From: Cenarchaeum sp. SB0675_bin_21
GTDB taxonomy: Archaea > Thermoproteota > Nitrososphaeria > Nitrososphaerales > Nitrosopumilaceae
Direction of reading: 5' to 3'
NCBI GenBank assembly: GCA_009843815.1
Contig: VYCS01000003.1
Span: 1 to 36,275, forward strand
Length of the DNA stretch: 36,275 nt
This document shows, piece by piece, positions 3,050 through 28,165 of this stretch. Every line of letters starts with the position of its first letter. The stretch's first letter is position 1. The position numbers were made by a program, and so were the translations under genes. The notes below the pieces were generated by a model, which worked only from the letters and a program-made list of their open reading frames with translations, ran no database searches and had not been told where the DNA came from.

Positions 3050-4342
3050 ATGTCTGTTCGGATCCATCCGGCCATGCGGGGCAAGGAACTGAGGCGCAGG
3101 GCGGTACACCACACACGTGTGTATCAAACACGCTTTGCCGACTACATTGTATTGGATGTATTTGGAAGTCACAAGGCATGGCGTACAAAGCAATTGACGG
3201 ATAAACATGCCCGCGCGCCGCACTTTCGTAATCCGGTGGCGCAGACCGACATATTTGAGTTGGCATTTGATGATACATCAAAACGGTGGAACGGCACGCC
3301 GTCAATCCATGTAGCAGTATATGGAACGGGTCGGCAGAATAGGTCGTGGATGGCATTTCCGGTACCGCCATATGTCGTAAATGAGCTTGGCAGGCCAAAC
3401 AGAACACCCAAAACCGTATCCATAAACAGGGATGAGATATTCATCACGTATCAGGAGAATGTGCAGGATAGTAAAGCCGTAATGTGGGCAGATGTGGATA
3501 TGAATGCAAAGAACAACGCGTATTCATTCACTGATGGTACGGTAACTATTGTGGGCAACCGAAATGGGAGTGAGTACAACAGGGCGTGTAGCAGGATATT
3601 GAAGGTGAGGCGGCGGAACGATGACCGCATCATGGCAAAGTATACGGGAAAGGCATGGAAAACATACGGGAACCGCATACGCAATGATGTACATGTGGAG
3701 GCCAAAAGGTTGGCCAATGCGCGGTGTGTCGTAGGGTTTGAGACGCTGAACATCCACAACCTGTACAACAAAAATGGTAAAATGTCGCCATATGTCCGCG
3801 GCAAGACGAAAGCGACACTGAATACCGGCCAGAGGCAGGCTGCCCTCAAGAACGCGGCAGAGTCCGCGGGGCTGCCAAGTGTGGGCGTTGAGCCGCGCAA
3901 CACGTCTGCCAAATGCCACAAGTGTGGCGGAAGACTGGCGTTTCACAGTAAACGGAGCGGCGAGGTGCCGCTGCGCAACATGCGCTGCGGGGGTGTGTGC
4001 AGGGCAATGCGGGAGAGGGATGCCAACGCCAGCACCAACATATTATTGCTTATAATACGGGAATTGATGGGTGATTCTGTCGTTTCGACTGGAACCATCA
4101 CGACGTCCGAGCTGCTGCAACTACTCAAAGTGGTGGTTGCCAATCGCACAGTCCCGCATCGTAAGAAATTAATCGACATCATGCGGCTCTTAGAGGGTCG
4201 TAGCGCAAACACCTTGTGGTGTTTGTCGGGGGTGCACAAACCAAAACACCGTAATTACGTCGACGGTGACTCCATGGGTGTATTTGGGGTGGGCGATGCC
4301 GGCCGGAACGGTCCGGGGCCGCCCAATGCTGCCAAGTTGTGA
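3050..4342 (+). CDS. tnpB: TnpB-family RuvC nuclease, solitary (no tnpA)
   Basis: A 430-residue TnpB, the RNA-guided nuclease of IS200/IS605-type elements. All three RuvC acidic residues can be placed: Asp150 in WADVDMNAKNN, Glu231 in VGFETLNIHN and Asp324 in RERDANASTNIL. The zinc ribbon is unusual: CHKC at 289-292 is normal, but the second half is CGGVC at 313-317 (CxxxC instead of CxxC). About 100 residues follow the last catalytic Asp and are GC-rich in DNA, as expected where the guide RNA scaffold overlaps the gene end. The start is the first ATG after an in-frame TGA at 3044. The sequence differs strongly from the other two tnpB genes here, so it belongs to another lineage. No transposase is adjacent. 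Confidence 0.85.
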   Translation: MSVRIHPAMRGKELRRRAVHHTRVYQTRFADYIVLDVFGSHKAWRTKQLTDKHARAPHFRNPVAQTDIFELAFDDTSKRWNGTPSIHVAVYGTGRQNRSWMAFPVPPYVVNELGRPNRTPKTVSINRDEIFITYQENVQDSKAVMWADVDMNAKNNAYSFTDGTVTIVGNRNGSEYNRACSRILKVRRRNDDRIMAKYTGKAWKTYGNRIRNDVHVEAKRLANARCVVGFETLNIHNLYNKNGKMSPYVRGKTKATLNTGQRQAALKNAAESAGLPSVGVEPRNTSAKCHKCGGRLAFHSKRSGEVPLRNMRCGGVCRAMRERDANASTNILLLIIRELMGDSVVSTGTITTSELLQLLKVVVANRTVPHRKKLIDIMRLLEGRSANTLWCLSGVHKPKHRNYVDGDSMGVFGVGDAGRNGPGPPNAAKL

Positions 4343-18228: not shown

Positions 18229-18615
18229 TCAATGCCTAACTTTGAGATGGGGGTTTACATTAGTAGGAATGATATATGTCCATTCCCGGCCAGTTTTATG
18301 TCTCTGCATCTTTAACTTATCTGAAAAGCGGGCTAAGTATGTAGATACAACACTAAGTTTGATGGGTTCGTTGTATTCATCCTCATACTTCTCCAACACC
18401 ATATTAGAGGTAAAGTTCCCAGGAGTAAAGTATTTTTCAGCTACATGCCAAATTTTCGCACCAATAGAGTCTAGTGGTGCAGTCTTTTTACCATCCATTA
18501 ATTCTATCATCTCATATACTTTCAACAACTTTTCTTTGGTGACCTCACCTTCCAACTTTATATCAAAACGGACACCATCACCATCATCTACATCAATGCG
18601 TATGCGTTTTCTCAT
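18229..18615 (-). CDS. Putative DNA-binding protein beside the origin
   Basis: A 128-residue protein. The first 40 residues are beta-rich (RKRIRIDVDDGDGVRFDIKL) followed by a helix. Residues 45-120 look like a winged-helix fold, with APLDSIGAKIWHVAEKYF, a recognition-like helix IKLSVVSTYLARFSDKLKM and a basic wing RHKTGREWTYIIP. It is transcribed away from the origin, with its 5' end next to the TTAAC-rich part. A role as local regulator or origin-associated protein is suggested only by position. Family name unknown. Confidence 0.6.
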   Translation of the reverse strand: MRKRIRIDVDDGDGVRFDIKLEGEVTKEKLLKVYEMIELMDGKKTAPLDSIGAKIWHVAEKYFTPGNFTSNMVLEKYEDEYNEPIKLSVVSTYLARFSDKLKMQRHKTGREWTYIIPTNVNPHLKVRH

Positions 18616-18751
18616 CTATAAGATATTAACAATTGTTCACTTATTACCACCTTTGTCAAAATCTGTTAACAACTAACATTGTTAATTTTGACAAGTGAAT
18701 TTTCCATATATTATTTTTGGATTTAATGTATAATATAGAAGGAGAGGGTAG

Positions 18752-18790
18752 AATGATGCCTGGAGTGGAAATGAAGGGGTCAGAATCAGC
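18752..18790 (+). repeat. ORB-like box 1 within a 39-base perfect repeat
   Basis: The core is TGGAGTGGAAATGAAGGGGT (18761-18780). The whole 39-base segment recurs without a mismatch at 18813-18851, 61 bases later. The GTGGAAA and GGGG parts match the archaeal ORB/mini-ORB pattern. Confidence 0.8.
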
Positions 18791-18812
18791 GATTAACATG
18801 TTAACCACACAT

Positions 18813-18851
18813 AATGATGCCTGGAGTGGAAATGAAGGGGTCAGAATCAGC
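18813..18851 (+). repeat. ORB-like box 2, identical 39-base copy
   Basis: An exact copy of 18752-18790 in the same orientation. The 61-base period puts the two sites on nearly the same face of the helix (close to six turns). Confidence 0.8.
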
Positions 18852-18897
18852 ATATTTCTTATTCTAGTTAACTTGATATTAACTACTGATTAACAGA

Positions 18898-18925
18898 GGC
18901 CCCCTCCCCACCATTTCCACTCCAC
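18898..18925 (-). repeat. ORB-like box 3, inverted
   Basis: On the minus strand this reads GTGGAGTGGAAATGGTGGGG and continues with more G. It shares the GGAGTGGAAATG core with boxes 1 and 2 but has a longer G-run, and it faces them across an AT-rich spacer. Confidence 0.75.
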
Positions 18926-18996
18926 TATAATAAAAAATAAAAAAAGAGTGATCAAGAATAGATATCAGTATGAGATGTATCATATTCATAATGAGA

Positions 18997-19019
18997 TGGA
19001 ATGGAAATGAAGGGGTGAG
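18997..19019 (+). repeat. ORB-like box 4 overlapping the orc1 leader
   Basis: TGGAATGGAAATGAAGGGGT followed by GAG. It ends six bases before the GTG start of orc1/cdc6, and its GGGGTGA could double as the ribosome binding site. Binding here would cover the gene's translation start and possibly its promoter. Confidence 0.75.
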
Positions 19020-19025
19020 TGTCAG

Positions 19026-20225
19026 GTGGATCCAATAGACCGTCTCTTAGATGAAGCAGAATCAGGCCTCTCTCTGATTAAGAATCGGGATGCCTTACGC
19101 TTTACATTCATCCCAGATAGAATACAACATAGAGATAACGAATTAACACAAGTAACACAATCATTACTACCCATACTTAAACAATCTAGACCATCCAATC
19201 TACTAGTGTATGGTAAACCAGGTACGGGAAAGACTCTTGTAGTTAAAAAAGTGATATCAAAGATTCAAGAGCGTGTGAAATCCACCAACTTTCCCATAAA
19301 ATTAGTGTATACTAACTCAAAGGTTGAGACTACTCTGTATGGTTTGTTGTTGAACTTTGGTCGTCAATTGGATATGTCTGAGAAGGAACTACCATGGACT
19401 GGAATATCCATAAGTGAGGTATTTAGGAGAATTCTGGATGTTATAAACAACAAAAAACTAAACGTCATACTGGTGATCGATGAGATAGACTTTCTAGTCA
19501 AATTAGTTACAAAAGGAAATAAAGACATTCTATACCATATCACAAGAGCTAATGAGAGATTGAATAATGGTTCTCTTACTCTGGTGGGAATATCTAATAA
19601 TTTAACATTCAAAGATCATCTTGATCCTAGGGTAATAAGCACATTAGGCGAAGAAGAAGTTGTCTTTACAAGTTATACTATAGAGCAACTACGCTCTATA
19701 ATACAAGAGAGAATAAGAATGGCATTTGATAGAGATGTAGTATATGACTCCACACTGAATCTCTGCGCAGCGTATGCAGGCCGTGAGCATGGTGATGCCC
19801 GCCGAGCAATAGACTTGATTCGTGTAGCAGGTGAGATTGCCGAACGGGATCAATCTACATCTGTACAACCAGACCATATTGAAGAGGCATTAAAGAAAAT
19901 TGAAGAAGACAAAGAGACGGCAGCCCTAAAATCCTACCCACTACACGAGAAACTTTTGATATTGGGTGTAATGCGTACGGATGGTTCTACTACTGGGAGT
20001 ATATACAATGTATACAAAGAGATGTGTAGAAAGATACAACAGAAAGAGCTCTCATATCGTCGCATAACACAAATGCTTAGTGAGATAGAGATGTCTGGTT
20101 TAATATCCAGTCGTTTGGTCCATCAAGGCGTACATGGCAACACAAAAAAATTCAAACTGACCATATCACAAAGTATAGTCAAAGAGACATTATACCTAGA
20201 TGATACATTAAGAGAGTTAATTTGA
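19026..20225 (+). CDS. orc1/cdc6: Orc1/Cdc6 replication initiator
   Basis: A 399-residue AAA+ initiator that binds origin boxes and helps load the MCM helicase. Walker A GKPGTGKT is at 63-70 and Walker B ILVIDEID at 148-155. Sensor-type segments follow (TLVGISNNLTF, and GREHGDARRAIDLIRVAGEIA as the sensor 2 arginine region), then a winged helix from about 310 (EKLLILGVMRTDGSTTGSIY). The chosen start is GTG 19026, placed after ORB box 4. Its 3' end overlaps that of the PolD small subunit by nine bases. The origin and its initiator are thus one locus, with the polymerase subunit immediately beyond. Confidence 0.96.
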   Translation: MDPIDRLLDEAESGLSLIKNRDALRFTFIPDRIQHRDNELTQVTQSLLPILKQSRPSNLLVYGKPGTGKTLVVKKVISKIQERVKSTNFPIKLVYTNSKVETTLYGLLLNFGRQLDMSEKELPWTGISISEVFRRILDVINNKKLNVILVIDEIDFLVKLVTKGNKDILYHITRANERLNNGSLTLVGISNNLTFKDHLDPRVISTLGEEEVVFTSYTIEQLRSIIQERIRMAFDRDVVYDSTLNLCAAYAGREHGDARRAIDLIRVAGEIAERDQSTSVQPDHIEEALKKIEEDKETAALKSYPLHEKLLILGVMRTDGSTTGSIYNVYKEMCRKIQQKELSYRRITQMLSEIEMSGLISSRLVHQGVHGNTKKFKLTISQSIVKETLYLDDTLRELI

Positions 20226-21629
20226 AAAGTCCCTCAAGACTATCTGATGAGTCTTTAAGTTGAACAATACCGCAATACCGGGTGTAGGTACCTGACCCAC
20301 GCGTAATTGAAAAGGTGTCTGTCTCTGCCAAGCGCCAGAGTTTATCACCTTTACTCCCTTGTATACATCTATCTCAGTTACATGGACATGGCCTGCATGA
20401 AACACATCAGGTATATTCTCTATAACTAACAAATCCTCTTTTTCTGGGGCAATGGGGGTCTGGCTCCCAAATATGGGAGATAAATGCCTCGCACGCAGTA
20501 TACTTCTCATTACATCTGCCGGATGAGCGTACTCCATACCAGCCACCCCCTTTACTATATCATCAATACTCTGTCCGTGGAACATCAATACTTTGATATT
20601 ATTTACGCTTATCATGGCAGGATTTCCCAACATGAATACATTCTCCTTATTCCAAAGGTTTGGAGCACTACCTTGTGGTATGGCTGGTTGGGGCAGGGCG
20701 CGGCGGCCCGGGTCGTGATTACCAGGAGAGATAAAGACTTTGATATAATCAGGTATTAACGAGAGTAACTCGGCAGCCTTCTCTAACTGTTTGTATATAG
20801 TCTTCTCTTCTAACTCTTTATCTTGATCCGGAAATATACCCACACCATCTATGATATCCCCAGCTATCAGAATGAACCGTACCTTTAAGGCGTATGGATC
20901 AGAACTTGACAACCAATCCAGAAATTCCCTAAACTCCCTCTCCATGAAATACTTACTTCCTATATGTAAATCTGAGAGTAGTATGGCAAACGCTTCACTG
21001 TCACCTTTATTTGTGCTGTGCAGGGGCACGTCTGGTTGTATTATATCGGTGAATTTTACATCACCACCCTGCTTGTCAACCTTTACCATCACAAATTGAT
21101 CTAGAAACAACTCTCTGAGCGTATTACGAGCCTGGTCTACAACAAATCCCTCTAGAGTTCCAGTCATATCCTCTACAGTAAGCCGAAAAGTGTTGTCTTT
21201 GATGACTTTGTTATTTACAAGACCACAAACATAGGAATCCTGCTCATCTTTGTTTTGTATGTTTGATATATTTCTTAGATTCTTAGCTTCGGGACGCTGT
21301 TCCATTATATTTTTCAATTTTTCAAATCTACTTTTAAAAAGTGAATCAAAACCCTCACTTTCTCCCGGCATGGTTAGACGGGCAGTACAGTCAAAGAGTA
21401 TCTCATGCTTACTCTGTATGTTTGTGTCTACTTCAAGTCCCAAATATCTTATAATATCATTACCGGTTATGTGAAAATCCTGGTCAATCGACTTTTCTCG
21501 TATTATCTCTTTGATGATTTTATCTAGGTTTTTGTCTTCCACACCACCTAATATCTCTACGACCTCTGGATGTATTTGGAAACCCTTCTTGAAAGCATAA
21601 TCTAGGGCTCTTTTTACATTTCTTCGCAT
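20217..21629 (-). CDS. polB: DNA polymerase D small subunit, DP1
   Basis: A 470-residue small subunit carrying the 3'-5' proofreading exonuclease. An N-terminal helical region (1-60) is followed by an OB fold at about 130-205 and an Mre11-like phosphoesterase. Metal motifs are DLHIG (220-224), GDIIDG (257-262), GNHDPG (303-308), MFHGQS and AGHVHVTE (near 417), all intact, so proofreading should be active. It converges on orc1 with a nine-base overlap, and its 5' end faces the SpoIIM-like gene. Its partner is the large subunit at 12827-16156. Confidence 0.96.
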   Translation of the reverse strand: MRRNVKRALDYAFKKGFQIHPEVVEILGGVEDKNLDKIIKEIIREKSIDQDFHITGNDIIRYLGLEVDTNIQSKHEILFDCTARLTMPGESEGFDSLFKSRFEKLKNIMEQRPEAKNLRNISNIQNKDEQDSYVCGLVNNKVIKDNTFRLTVEDMTGTLEGFVVDQARNTLRELFLDQFVMVKVDKQGGDVKFTDIIQPDVPLHSTNKGDSEAFAILLSDLHIGSKYFMEREFREFLDWLSSSDPYALKVRFILIAGDIIDGVGIFPDQDKELEEKTIYKQLEKAAELLSLIPDYIKVFISPGNHDPGRRALPQPAIPQGSAPNLWNKENVFMLGNPAMISVNNIKVLMFHGQSIDDIVKGVAGMEYAHPADVMRSILRARHLSPIFGSQTPIAPEKEDLLVIENIPDVFHAGHVHVTEIDVYKGVKVINSGAWQRQTPFQLRVGQVPTPGIAVLFNLKTHQIVLRDFSN

Positions 21630-23547: not shown

Positions 23548-23575
23548 AGGGAATTATATACAAAAGTACACAACC
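23548..23575 (+). repeat. Left terminal inverted repeat (28 bases)
   Basis: An exact reverse complement of 24988-25015. The last residues of tnpB (VVYFCI) and its stop codon are encoded within this repeat. Confidence 0.9.
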
Positions 23576-24906
23576 TCGGCTGTACACTCATGCCTTTTCT
23601 GACGGCCTCGTTGTATGGAGCGGAGCATGGCGGGTGTTGGCTTGTAGTCCTCCTTGTGCCCCGGCCGTCTTAGGACGACCTTCCCCGCCGCCCTATGCAG
23701 AATATTCCAGGCGGCATTGACATCCGCGTGGAATACCCTGGTACAATTACTGCAAATGAATTTGTCGCGTGTGACACGCGACTTAGCATTCACCGTCCCA
23801 CACACATGGCACGTCTGGCTCGTATATTTGGCCGATGCCCCCAACAGCGGTATGTTGTGCATCTCACACCACTGCGCAAGCTTGCGCAGGAACTCCCCAA
23901 CATGGTTCTCCCGCATTGAACGGTTCATGGCGCGTTTGTAATTCCCGCCATGTGTGGTCATGTCTTTTACGGAGAGCGACTCGACCACGACTGCGTCCAC
24001 ACCATTAGTTATCTGCGCAATCGTCTGATTTATGGTGTTCGCAGCTATGTTGTTGGCCTTCCTGTATAGCCGCTTTATTTGGTCATTCAATATATGCCAC
24101 TTCCGGCCATGCCGTGTCTTGTGGTCACGCAAACTCTTTAGCGCGTCAATCTCCCGCAGGATTGCTCTATGGCGGGTGTTGTGTATTGTAACATTACCAT
24201 TTGTGTCGACAGTGACGGCGAGATGCTTGCCTCCCACATCGACACCCCGTATTGTACCAGTATTGCGGTGCGACTCTACCGGTTCATGTAGGGCAATATG
24301 TAGCTCAAACATGTGGTCTGACGGCTTTGTATGCTTGTCCACCCGTTTGGTGACATCAACTATCTTGAATGAGCGCATGTCCCATGATGTATTGATGGGC
24401 TTGGCGGTCTCCACCGTACCATATCCGGGGATATGTACTGTATGGCTATCTTTCCGTACAGGCGGTGTAACGGAACTCAATATGATGCGGCCGTCTTTGC
24501 GGCGGTATGGCGCGTGGCCGGAGTTGTCATCTACAACTCTTCTACATGCGATAGAGGCATCCTGTATGGCGCCCCTACCAAACGATGTGGGGCACTCGCG
24601 CAGCCATGTATGTTTGGCGCGCCACCCCGTAAGCTGTTTGTGCATGCCGTACTTTAATGCCCTCTTTGACGGCCCAAAATCATATGTATGGTAGTCATCG
24701 TCCAGCATACCTGATGTAAAATCCAGCTTGCCCGGCAGTTTGAAGGGCTGCAGGATGTCCACTACCACCCTCTCCATATATTCGCCACCAAACAAATACT
24801 CTGATACGGCGCGGTTGTACACATATCTTGACGCATGATTCGTGCGGTGCGCCCACTCTGCAAACAACACAGCCCTCCGTAGTGGTACCTTAACTATCCG
24901 TATCAT
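23554..24906 (-). CDS. tnpB: TnpB-family RuvC nuclease inside a TIR element
   Basis: A 450-residue TnpB with all catalytic positions: Asp223 (RGVDVGGKHLAV), Glu309 (VVVESLSVKD) and Asp395 (FHADVNAAWNIL). The zinc ribbon cysteines are at 366, 369, 385 and 388. The N-terminal part up to about 215 is the RNA/DNA-binding region, with SRYVYNRAVSEY as the family-like helix. A TATA-like TTTAAATA about 22 bases upstream of ATG 24906 supports that start. The stop codon lies inside the terminal repeat, so the gene fills the element almost exactly. No tnpA, serine recombinase or DDE transposase accompanies it. The DNA is more GC-rich than its surroundings. Confidence 0.92.
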   Translation of the reverse strand: MIRIVKVPLRRAVLFAEWAHRTNHASRYVYNRAVSEYLFGGEYMERVVVDILQPFKLPGKLDFTSGMLDDDYHTYDFGPSKRALKYGMHKQLTGWRAKHTWLRECPTSFGRGAIQDASIACRRVVDDNSGHAPYRRKDGRIILSSVTPPVRKDSHTVHIPGYGTVETAKPINTSWDMRSFKIVDVTKRVDKHTKPSDHMFELHIALHEPVESHRNTGTIRGVDVGGKHLAVTVDTNGNVTIHNTRHRAILREIDALKSLRDHKTRHGRKWHILNDQIKRLYRKANNIAANTINQTIAQITNGVDAVVVESLSVKDMTTHGGNYKRAMNRSMRENHVGEFLRKLAQWCEMHNIPLLGASAKYTSQTCHVCGTVNAKSRVTRDKFICSNCTRVFHADVNAAWNILHRAAGKVVLRRPGHKEDYKPTPAMLRSIQRGRQKRHECTAEVVYFCI

Positions 24907-26827: not shown

Positions 26828-28165
26828 TCACACGTCACGCCAGAGGACGACGGTGCATGATACATCTCGTTCCCCGGTCTGTGCTTGACGTTTCTCAGGG
26901 GAGCTGATGCAAGAACCCTCCACGTCCAGACACCCCTTAACATGGGTGCTGCCGGTATGGTCCGGCAAGTTTCGTAAGTTTAGTTGACCATGCATGGCCT
27001 CTGAGCCCAACTTTTTTAGCCCCGCATCCTCTATGTTTGAGCCCGCATTACAGTCGGCATGATACGTGTAGCCACACTTCTTACACAAGAATTTTCTACC
27101 ATCCCGGTTATCCTTATGTGTATAACCGCACGAGTAGCACCGTTGACTTGTATACGCTGCCGCAACCCAAATTATTTCGCCAGCCAACTTGTACGCCAAC
27201 AGTAATGCCAACAGCCCCCAGCACTGCTCCAGGATGGCCTTATTGAGACCAGATTTCTGCGCAACGTTTTTGCCGGGGTTTTCTTCCGTACCTTTGGCGG
27301 ACTTTGCCATGTTTTGTATAGGAAGTTTCTCAAAGGCTGCATGTGTGGTGCTGTCCGATATAACGCGTGATATTTTATGCGCGGTGGTCTTTCGAATGTT
27401 TGCAGCTTTGCGTTTGTTCTTGGCAGCCCTCTTAGCGGCTTTCACCCACCGTCGAGAACCAGGTTTACGATTCGTATAGTCGGGTTTCTGCCTGCGTGAC
27501 GCTATCTTTTGTGCCTTAGAGGCTGTTTTTTCGGCGTTGTTCATGCGGCGTGCCACCTTTTCGGGTATTATCATCACACAGTCAGGTGTGGCCACATTAC
27601 CGACATTCCGGTCTATACCAATAACAGTCGGTTCCGTCACGGTTGGCTTCTCATCGGGTATATCACAGGATATGGTAATCCTCCACCCGCCATCCGGTAG
27701 TTGAAACAGTTGGGCCGTCTTGTATCGGTAATTCAAGACGGGAAACTCCCGCGACAGTTTAACCTCGCCCATCTTGGCTATCTTGATTGTACGTGTATCG
27801 GTGAAGCGCGCTTGACCAATAGTGCCATCATGCGTTATTGTAAACGGGATGGAGATGTGACCTCCATATTTCTTAAAGTGCGGTTCACCAAACTCCGCCT
27901 TAGGTTTGATGTTGACAGCCTTCAGCTTCTCTGTTTCCACATATTGGTCATAATGCCTGCCCAAGTCATGTAATATTTGGCGCGTCACCCCGGATATGGA
28001 TTGACGCATCCAACGCGGACCTGAATGGTTGCGCAAGTCCGTATACCACGCGTTTATCCTACCACGCGTAGTGTTGACCCTCCCAGCTCGACGGTACTCC
28101 TCCTTGAAGGTTTCCAATAGTTTGTTATACACGTACCTGTCCATGCCGGCCTGTCTGGCCAACAT
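26828..28165 (-). CDS. tnpB: TnpB-family RuvC nuclease, possible non-standard start
   Basis: From the first ATG this is a 445-residue TnpB. Catalytic residues are Asp185 (VIGIDRNVGN), Glu279 (AAFEKLPIQN) and Asp371 (YHADCNAGSNIED). Zinc cysteines are at 343, 346, 361 and 364. The reading frame continues upstream of the ATG with VLRTYTFGVRFRKGFKKE, the normal first strand of TnpB, back to an ATA codon at 28220-28222, 26-28 bases after a TATA-like CTTTTTAAA. No ATG, GTG or TTG lies between that ATA and the ATG, so either translation begins at ATA or the N-terminus is truncated. Residues after about 400 (LDVEGSCISSPEKRQ) are missing in the left-edge copy. Confidence 0.88.
   Translation of the reverse strand: MLARQAGMDRYVYNKLLETFKEEYRRAGRVNTTRGRINAWYTDLRNHSGPRWMRQSISGVTRQILHDLGRHYDQYVETEKLKAVNIKPKAEFGEPHFKKYGGHISIPFTITHDGTIGQARFTDTRTIKIAKMGEVKLSREFPVLNYRYKTAQLFQLPDGGWRITISCDIPDEKPTVTEPTVIGIDRNVGNVATPDCVMIIPEKVARRMNNAEKTASKAQKIASRRQKPDYTNRKPGSRRWVKAAKRAAKNKRKAANIRKTTAHKISRVISDSTTHAAFEKLPIQNMAKSAKGTEENPGKNVAQKSGLNKAILEQCWGLLALLLAYKLAGEIIWVAAAYTSQRCYSCGYTHKDNRDGRKFLCKKCGYTYHADCNAGSNIEDAGLKKLGSEAMHGQLNLRNLPDHTGSTHVKGCLDVEGSCISSPEKRQAQTGERDVSCTVVLWRDV

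Follow-up and report, generated by a model that had tools for sequence, protein, structure and literature searches.

We argue that the DNA upstream of orc1 in this stretch is very probably a chromosomal replication origin of the ORB type, with four boxes for Orc1, and that it holds a proposed second element, an array of short TTMAC/GTKAA sites between and beside the boxes. An Orc1 origin of the ORB type is an already known kind, and this one is probably the only origin of its host. The window, by which we mean the whole 36,275 nucleotides that were analysed, belongs to an organism that we take to be a sponge-associated, ammonia-oxidising thaumarchaeon, Cenarchaeum-like. Its genome is a draft of 48 contigs and 1,610,300 bp (99.6% complete). 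Among named relatives the nearest is Cenarchaeum sp. SB0662_bin_33, whose orc1 is 90% identical to that of the window. Ammonia-oxidising archaea are among Earth's most abundant cells, and to our knowledge their origin has hardly been dissected so far. The second motif and the gene next to it look like an unrecognised part of the replication start machinery. The locus puts names to a motif and to a candidate gene, and there are natural examples in which the gene has moved and the motif was kept.

The flanks of orc1 were compared with 40 other loci from the family Nitrosopumilaceae and 33 loci from the order and class. Box measurements cover 40 Nitrosopumilaceae loci, which are the window and 39 others, in 21 genera. 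Lineages were designated as families f1-f50, genomes are G-numbered and loci L-numbered. The features of the window are these:

18229..18615, minus strand: small winged-helix DNA-binding protein, 128 aa; left flank of the origin, divergent from orc1
18626..18699, no strand: left TTMAC/GTKAA cluster, sites at 18626, 18636, 18665, 18681 and 18695; AT-rich DNA from the winged-helix gene to box 1
18752..18790, plus strand: copy 1 of the 39-bp repeat; ORB box 1 is 18761-18780
18793..18805, no strand: palindrome TTAACATGTTAAC between boxes 1 and 2
18813..18851, plus strand: copy 2 of the 39-bp repeat; ORB box 2 is 18822-18841, G-run rightward
18867..18894, plus strand: phased TTAAC triplet between boxes 2 and 3, sites at 18868, 18879 and 18890 in 11-bp steps
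18905..18924, minus strand: ORB box 3, inverted; 17 of 20 box bases, then a C/G run; G-run leftward, towards box 2
18925..18996, no strand: A/T tract behind box 3, AT 0.70-0.78; candidate unwinding element and orc1 promoter region
18997..19016, plus strand: ORB box 4, 9 bp 5' of the orc1 start codon
19026..20225, plus strand: orc1/cdc6 initiator gene (Pfam Cdc6_lid and Cdc6_C); start codon GTG at 19026
20217..21629, minus strand: PolD small subunit, DP1 (Pfam DNA_pol_E_B); convergent with orc1

The boxes are unique to this locus. A 20-bp box pattern was searched across the whole 1,610,300-bp genome with up to 3 mismatches. It has four matches, all of them here, and the reversed control has zero under the same settings. 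The common ORB pattern published with Ori-Finder 2 (PMC4164010) matches boxes 1, 2 and 4 with 2-3 mismatches, where 0.01 matches are expected; the fourth box of ORB type, box 3, was identified by the window's own box pattern rather than the published one. No exact box match was found in viral contigs. In place of TCCA, the dyad half of the ORB, the window's boxes have TGGA. The two 39-bp repeats are perfect copies with a gap of 22 bp. Boxes 2 and 3 face each other, and the AT fraction is up to 0.72 between them and 0.78 behind.

There is a single copy of orc1 in the host genome. The closest solved structures of its product are archaeal Cdc6/Orc1 proteins (2qby_A, which is Cdc6-1, at E 6.8e-85, and 2v1u at E 2.5e-81). 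The PolD small subunit is convergent with orc1 in every family locus where it was found, and the PolD large subunit is also near orc1 in the window.

An earlier note on this DNA had described much of this layout, and most of its description holds. The two perfect 39-base repeats 61 bases apart (start to start) and the inverted box with its extended G-run are where the list puts them. The claimed AT-rich DNA among the boxes is there too, with AT at 0.70-0.85 in 18640-18740 and 18920-18980. The Pfam matches agree with its naming of orc1 and the PolD small subunit. The 61-bp spacing, which was said to keep the first two boxes on one helical face, is about 5.8 helical turns. The fourth box was said to touch the orc1 start; the box is real, but "touching" is slightly generous for a 9-bp gap.

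The layout is conserved across the family. In 39 of the 40 Nitrosopumilaceae loci (21 genera) the spacing of boxes 1 and 2 is 61-62 bp, and box 3 usually lies 70-100 bp past box 2. As an inverted box, box 3 can be recognised in 38 of the 40, with no more than 5 mismatches from the family form; it is weak in L037 (6 mismatches) and not convincing in L065 (9 mismatches). In most genera the family form of box 4 is found either 22-31 bp or about 115-150 bp upstream of orc1, and in L039 and L074 it is more distant. The T-run/A-run behind box 3 is found again in most relatives. Outside the family, in the order and class, the boxes in the same place are the canonical ORB CTCCAGTGGAAATAAAGGGGT, so the change of the dyad half to TGGA/TAGA is specific to the family. 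The numbering of many complete relatives begins about 150 bp upstream of orc1. This agrees with the convention in N. maritimus, whose genome start was set before the ORB repeats and the cdc gene (PMC5797428). In one origin (L058, genome G013) about 130 extra bp separate box 3 from the TTAAC array, box 3 being 216 bp from box 2, and there is an additional CACACACC-like box.

When the origins are aligned, the TTMAC/GTKAA motif occupies fixed, helically phased positions between the boxes. The site offsets from box 1 are -53, +29/+37, +50, +103, +114 and +125. Taking one genome per genus in the 21 genera, 124 of 147 such slots are filled, against a mean of 1.07 (maximum 8) for random anchors in coding DNA and 1.54 (maximum 7) for shuffled origin DNA. 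The window occupies 5 of its 7 slots. Of the 21 genera, 18 have a site about 53 bp to the left of box 1; the window is without one at that exact position. At the place of the palindrome the left half is found in 18 of 21 genera and the right half in all 21. The triplet forms direct TTAAC pairs 11 bp apart, where 0.11 such pairs are expected over the whole window, and its offsets are the same in most genera. TTCAC takes the place of TTAAC in lineages f4 and f9.

The motif is also abundant. In the flanking DNA there are 221 TTMAC sites against 59 expected in the family, 300 against 91 in the rest of the class and 144 against 59 outside the class, absolute counts that are inflated by scoring GTTAAC on both strands and that come from related, non-independent loci. 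Direct pairs 10-12 bp apart number 40 against 0.5 expected in the family, 29 against 0.9 in the rest of the class and 9 against 0.6 outside it. The stronger argument is not the number of sites but their fixed offsets across genera in which the intervening sequence has diverged. A search of the open literature found neither the phased TTMAC array nor the linked winged-helix gene, though earlier notice is possible.

It is worth considering the gene on the other flank. The winged-helix protein is encoded once in the host genome. Its AlphaFold model is a wHTH with pLDDT >90 for residues 51-110. At cut-off it belongs to no Pfam or NCBIfam family, and no solved relative by sequence is better than E 0.4. 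A fold search returned generic winged helices of ArsR, BlaI, MarR and Fur (E >0.003) and no functional lead. Of the 73 Nitrososphaeria loci with enough flank, 69 have a homologue next to the origin, and in 68 it is divergent from orc1. In the four exceptions the gene, always single copy, is about 3 kb off (G176, G182 and G217) or on another contig (G177). The TTAAC sites remain at the ORB boxes in all four. Since the sites stay when the gene has moved, this argues that the array is part of the origin and not just the gene's operator.

In a survey of the phylum the winged-helix protein was found in 130 of 200 genomes, one copy each. Outside the class it adjoins orc1, divergently, in 19 of the 46 genomes having the gene, and these span 10 families. 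This limited linkage counts against the protein as the candidate. A strong Cren7 match (>60 bits) is present in 12 of 19 sampled genomes without the winged-helix protein and in 0 of 23 sampled with it. By eye, the recognition helix has no clear co-variation with TTAAC or TTCAC. On balance we put the chance that this protein binds the TTMAC array a little short of even.

Several other readings of the TTMAC sites have to be weighed. One can imagine that the array is read by an unlinked nucleoid protein or a regulator of the Lrp/AsnC type, and that the winged-helix gene is linked for some other reason. TTAAC-3-GTTAA is a 5-3-5 palindrome, a form favoured by Lrp/AsnC dimers, and in G003 and G034 the sites away from the origin have an Lrp-like gene beside them. 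However, the origin has no linked gene for a protein of this kind, for which direct 11-bp repeats would also be atypical, so we consider this scenario rather doubtful.

Alternatively, the sites could be transcriptional operators of orc1 or of the divergent winged-helix gene, with no role in replication. The array does lie between two divergent genes, its left cluster is in the winged-helix promoter, and TTAACATTGTTAA precedes other genes too in relatives. This does not fit the four exceptions, where the array did not leave the ORB boxes; in G177 the relocated gene has a single, distant site in the 300 bp upstream of it. Nor does it fit the offsets, which are fixed relative to the boxes while the start codons drift by >100 bp. 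We regard pure operators as unlikely.

It is just as unlikely, in our opinion, that the sites are weak Orc1 half-sites between strong ORBs, which would leave only one origin-binding protein. Every site is inside the Orc1 region and phased with the boxes, and the TTCAC of f4 and f9 resembles part of the ORB dyad. However, TTAAC has no core in common with GTGGAAA or the G-run. In archaeal Orc1-DNA complexes the known contacts are at the ORB core and the G-run, which also speaks against half-sites.

The reading of the locus as an origin comes from the earlier note too. It is supported by the unique ORB boxes, the sole orc1 next to them, the layout conserved in 21 genera and a skew that turns here in two of three relatives; what that note overlooked is the TTMAC array and the origin-linked winged-helix gene. 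It had also predicted a switch in GC skew. Since the host genome is a draft, skew was sampled in three complete relatives (G003, G085 and G058), with G003 done in 40 windows of 20 kb, and the outcome was mixed. The switch is clear in G003, the best-sampled close relative. There the curve of cumulative GC skew peaks at 1530 kb for an origin at 1539 kb and is lowest at 650 kb for an antipode at 716 kb, a fit equalled by 3% of possible origin positions. It is weaker in G085, with a maximum at 910 kb for an origin at 828 kb and 9% of positions as good. It is absent in G058, where GC skew does not fit the origin and 49% of positions are as good. The skew sign is identical in all three. This supports an origin, but it is weak evidence and not proof.

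The remaining scenario, in which the boxes serve only the autoregulation of orc1, or form a dormant origin, and the true origin is elsewhere, would account for the overlap of box 4 with the orc1 start region, and origin activity here is a prediction, but the genome has no further box match at 3 mismatches, orc1 is single, the layout is conserved and one origin was mapped in N. maritimus (PMC4010727, PMC5333045), so we consider it very improbable indeed.

The locus is best compared with other ORB-type archaeal origins of the oriC1/cdc6 family (Pyrococcus oriC, Sulfolobus oriC1 and the predicted and mapped N. maritimus oriC). They share the G-run ORB boxes, an inverted pair around AT-rich DNA, the adjacent orc1 and the PolD small subunit by cdc6 (PMC4010727, PMC4164010, PMC2643942). 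The differences here are the change of the dyad half from TCCA to TGGA/TAGA in the Nitrosopumilaceae, the four boxes with the first pair fixed at 61-62 bp, and in addition the TTMAC array and the flanking winged-helix gene. We infer that the neighbouring gene supplies the Orc1 that occupies all four boxes. Given the inverted arrangement of boxes 2 and 3, whose G-runs point at each other across about 60 bp, MCM helicases would be loaded in the interval that they enclose, and replication would fire from here. In Sulfolobus ORB2 and ORB3 flank AT-rich DNA, and MCM is thought to be recruited between them (PMC12141716). By binding box 4, which lies across the start region of orc1, Orc1 would be able to act as its own repressor.

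The TTAAC triplet and the TTAAC palindrome between boxes 1 and 2 would make up the second conserved element, on roughly one helix face. A second origin protein may occupy it, in a role like that of UBP on the ucm of Sulfolobus origins. The ucm is an essential mid-motif between ORBs that is bound by UBP, which contacts MCM, and UBP is reported only from Desulfurococcales and Sulfolobales (PMC12141716). Both systems have a conserved non-ORB motif between two inverted ORBs, and the distance between these is of the same order, about 100 bp here and 130 bp in ucm origins (PMC12141716). However, TTMAC is unlike ucm in sequence, and there are several phased copies here instead of one. The best candidate here would be the single-copy winged helix of the other flank, whereas UBP binds DNA via beta-hairpins. 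The two distributions appear complementary. No match to the Sulfolobus ucm (about ATTATACAAAC) was found in 18600-19060 at up to 2 mismatches. Since the array follows the ucm/UBP plan but the motif and the candidate protein differ and ucm is absent, we propose a functional analogue and not a member of that system.

The widest form of our proposal is that Nitrososphaeria and several other Thermoproteota have a two-protein origin, with Orc1 on the ORBs and a dedicated, single-copy, origin-linked winged-helix protein on the phased TTMAC array. This would be an undescribed analogue of UBP/ucm that was lost or replaced in the Crenarchaea that bear Cren7. We offer it tentatively, as a scenario that may well be wrong. 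Bacterial oriC (DnaA boxes with IHF/Fis accessory sites) and plasmid iterons share the plan of initiator boxes with phased accessory sites beside an initiator gene, but the proteins and sequences are unrelated.

Several minor observations must be noted. Palindromes of TTAACATTGTTAA cluster away from the origin in G003:C1:1095475-1097269 (L131), G032:C1:803958-804836 (L132) and G034:C1:728976 (L133). The genes near them are for a two-helix membrane protein, a cupredoxin-like protein and an Lrp-like protein. None of these is a segregation gene, and the idea of a centromere or SegB-type site was dropped for that reason. Since the palindromes lie near unrelated genes in several relatives, some other regulator may read the sequence.

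The leader of about 110 nt that separates box 4 from orc1 carries 3-6 GATC sites, against 0.3-0.5 expected, in about ten Nitrosopumilaceae genera (L038, L040, L041, L046, L047, L052, L053, L057, L062, L068, L069, L072 and L076). It is absent from the window, is non-coding as judged by in-frame stops, and is reminiscent of the GATC clusters of bacterial oriC.

Some relatives (e.g. G030, G034 and G103) have a second Orc1/Cdc6 that shares about 30% identity with the main one, and integrated elements of Thaumarchaeota are known to carry orc1/cdc6-type genes (PMC6563490). The 36-kb window also has three TnpB/IS605 OrfB-like genes (3050-4342, 23554-24906 and 26828-28165). At 734-2374 it encodes a large coiled-coil protein, secreted and with a signal-like segment at its N-terminus, that may be a surface protein.
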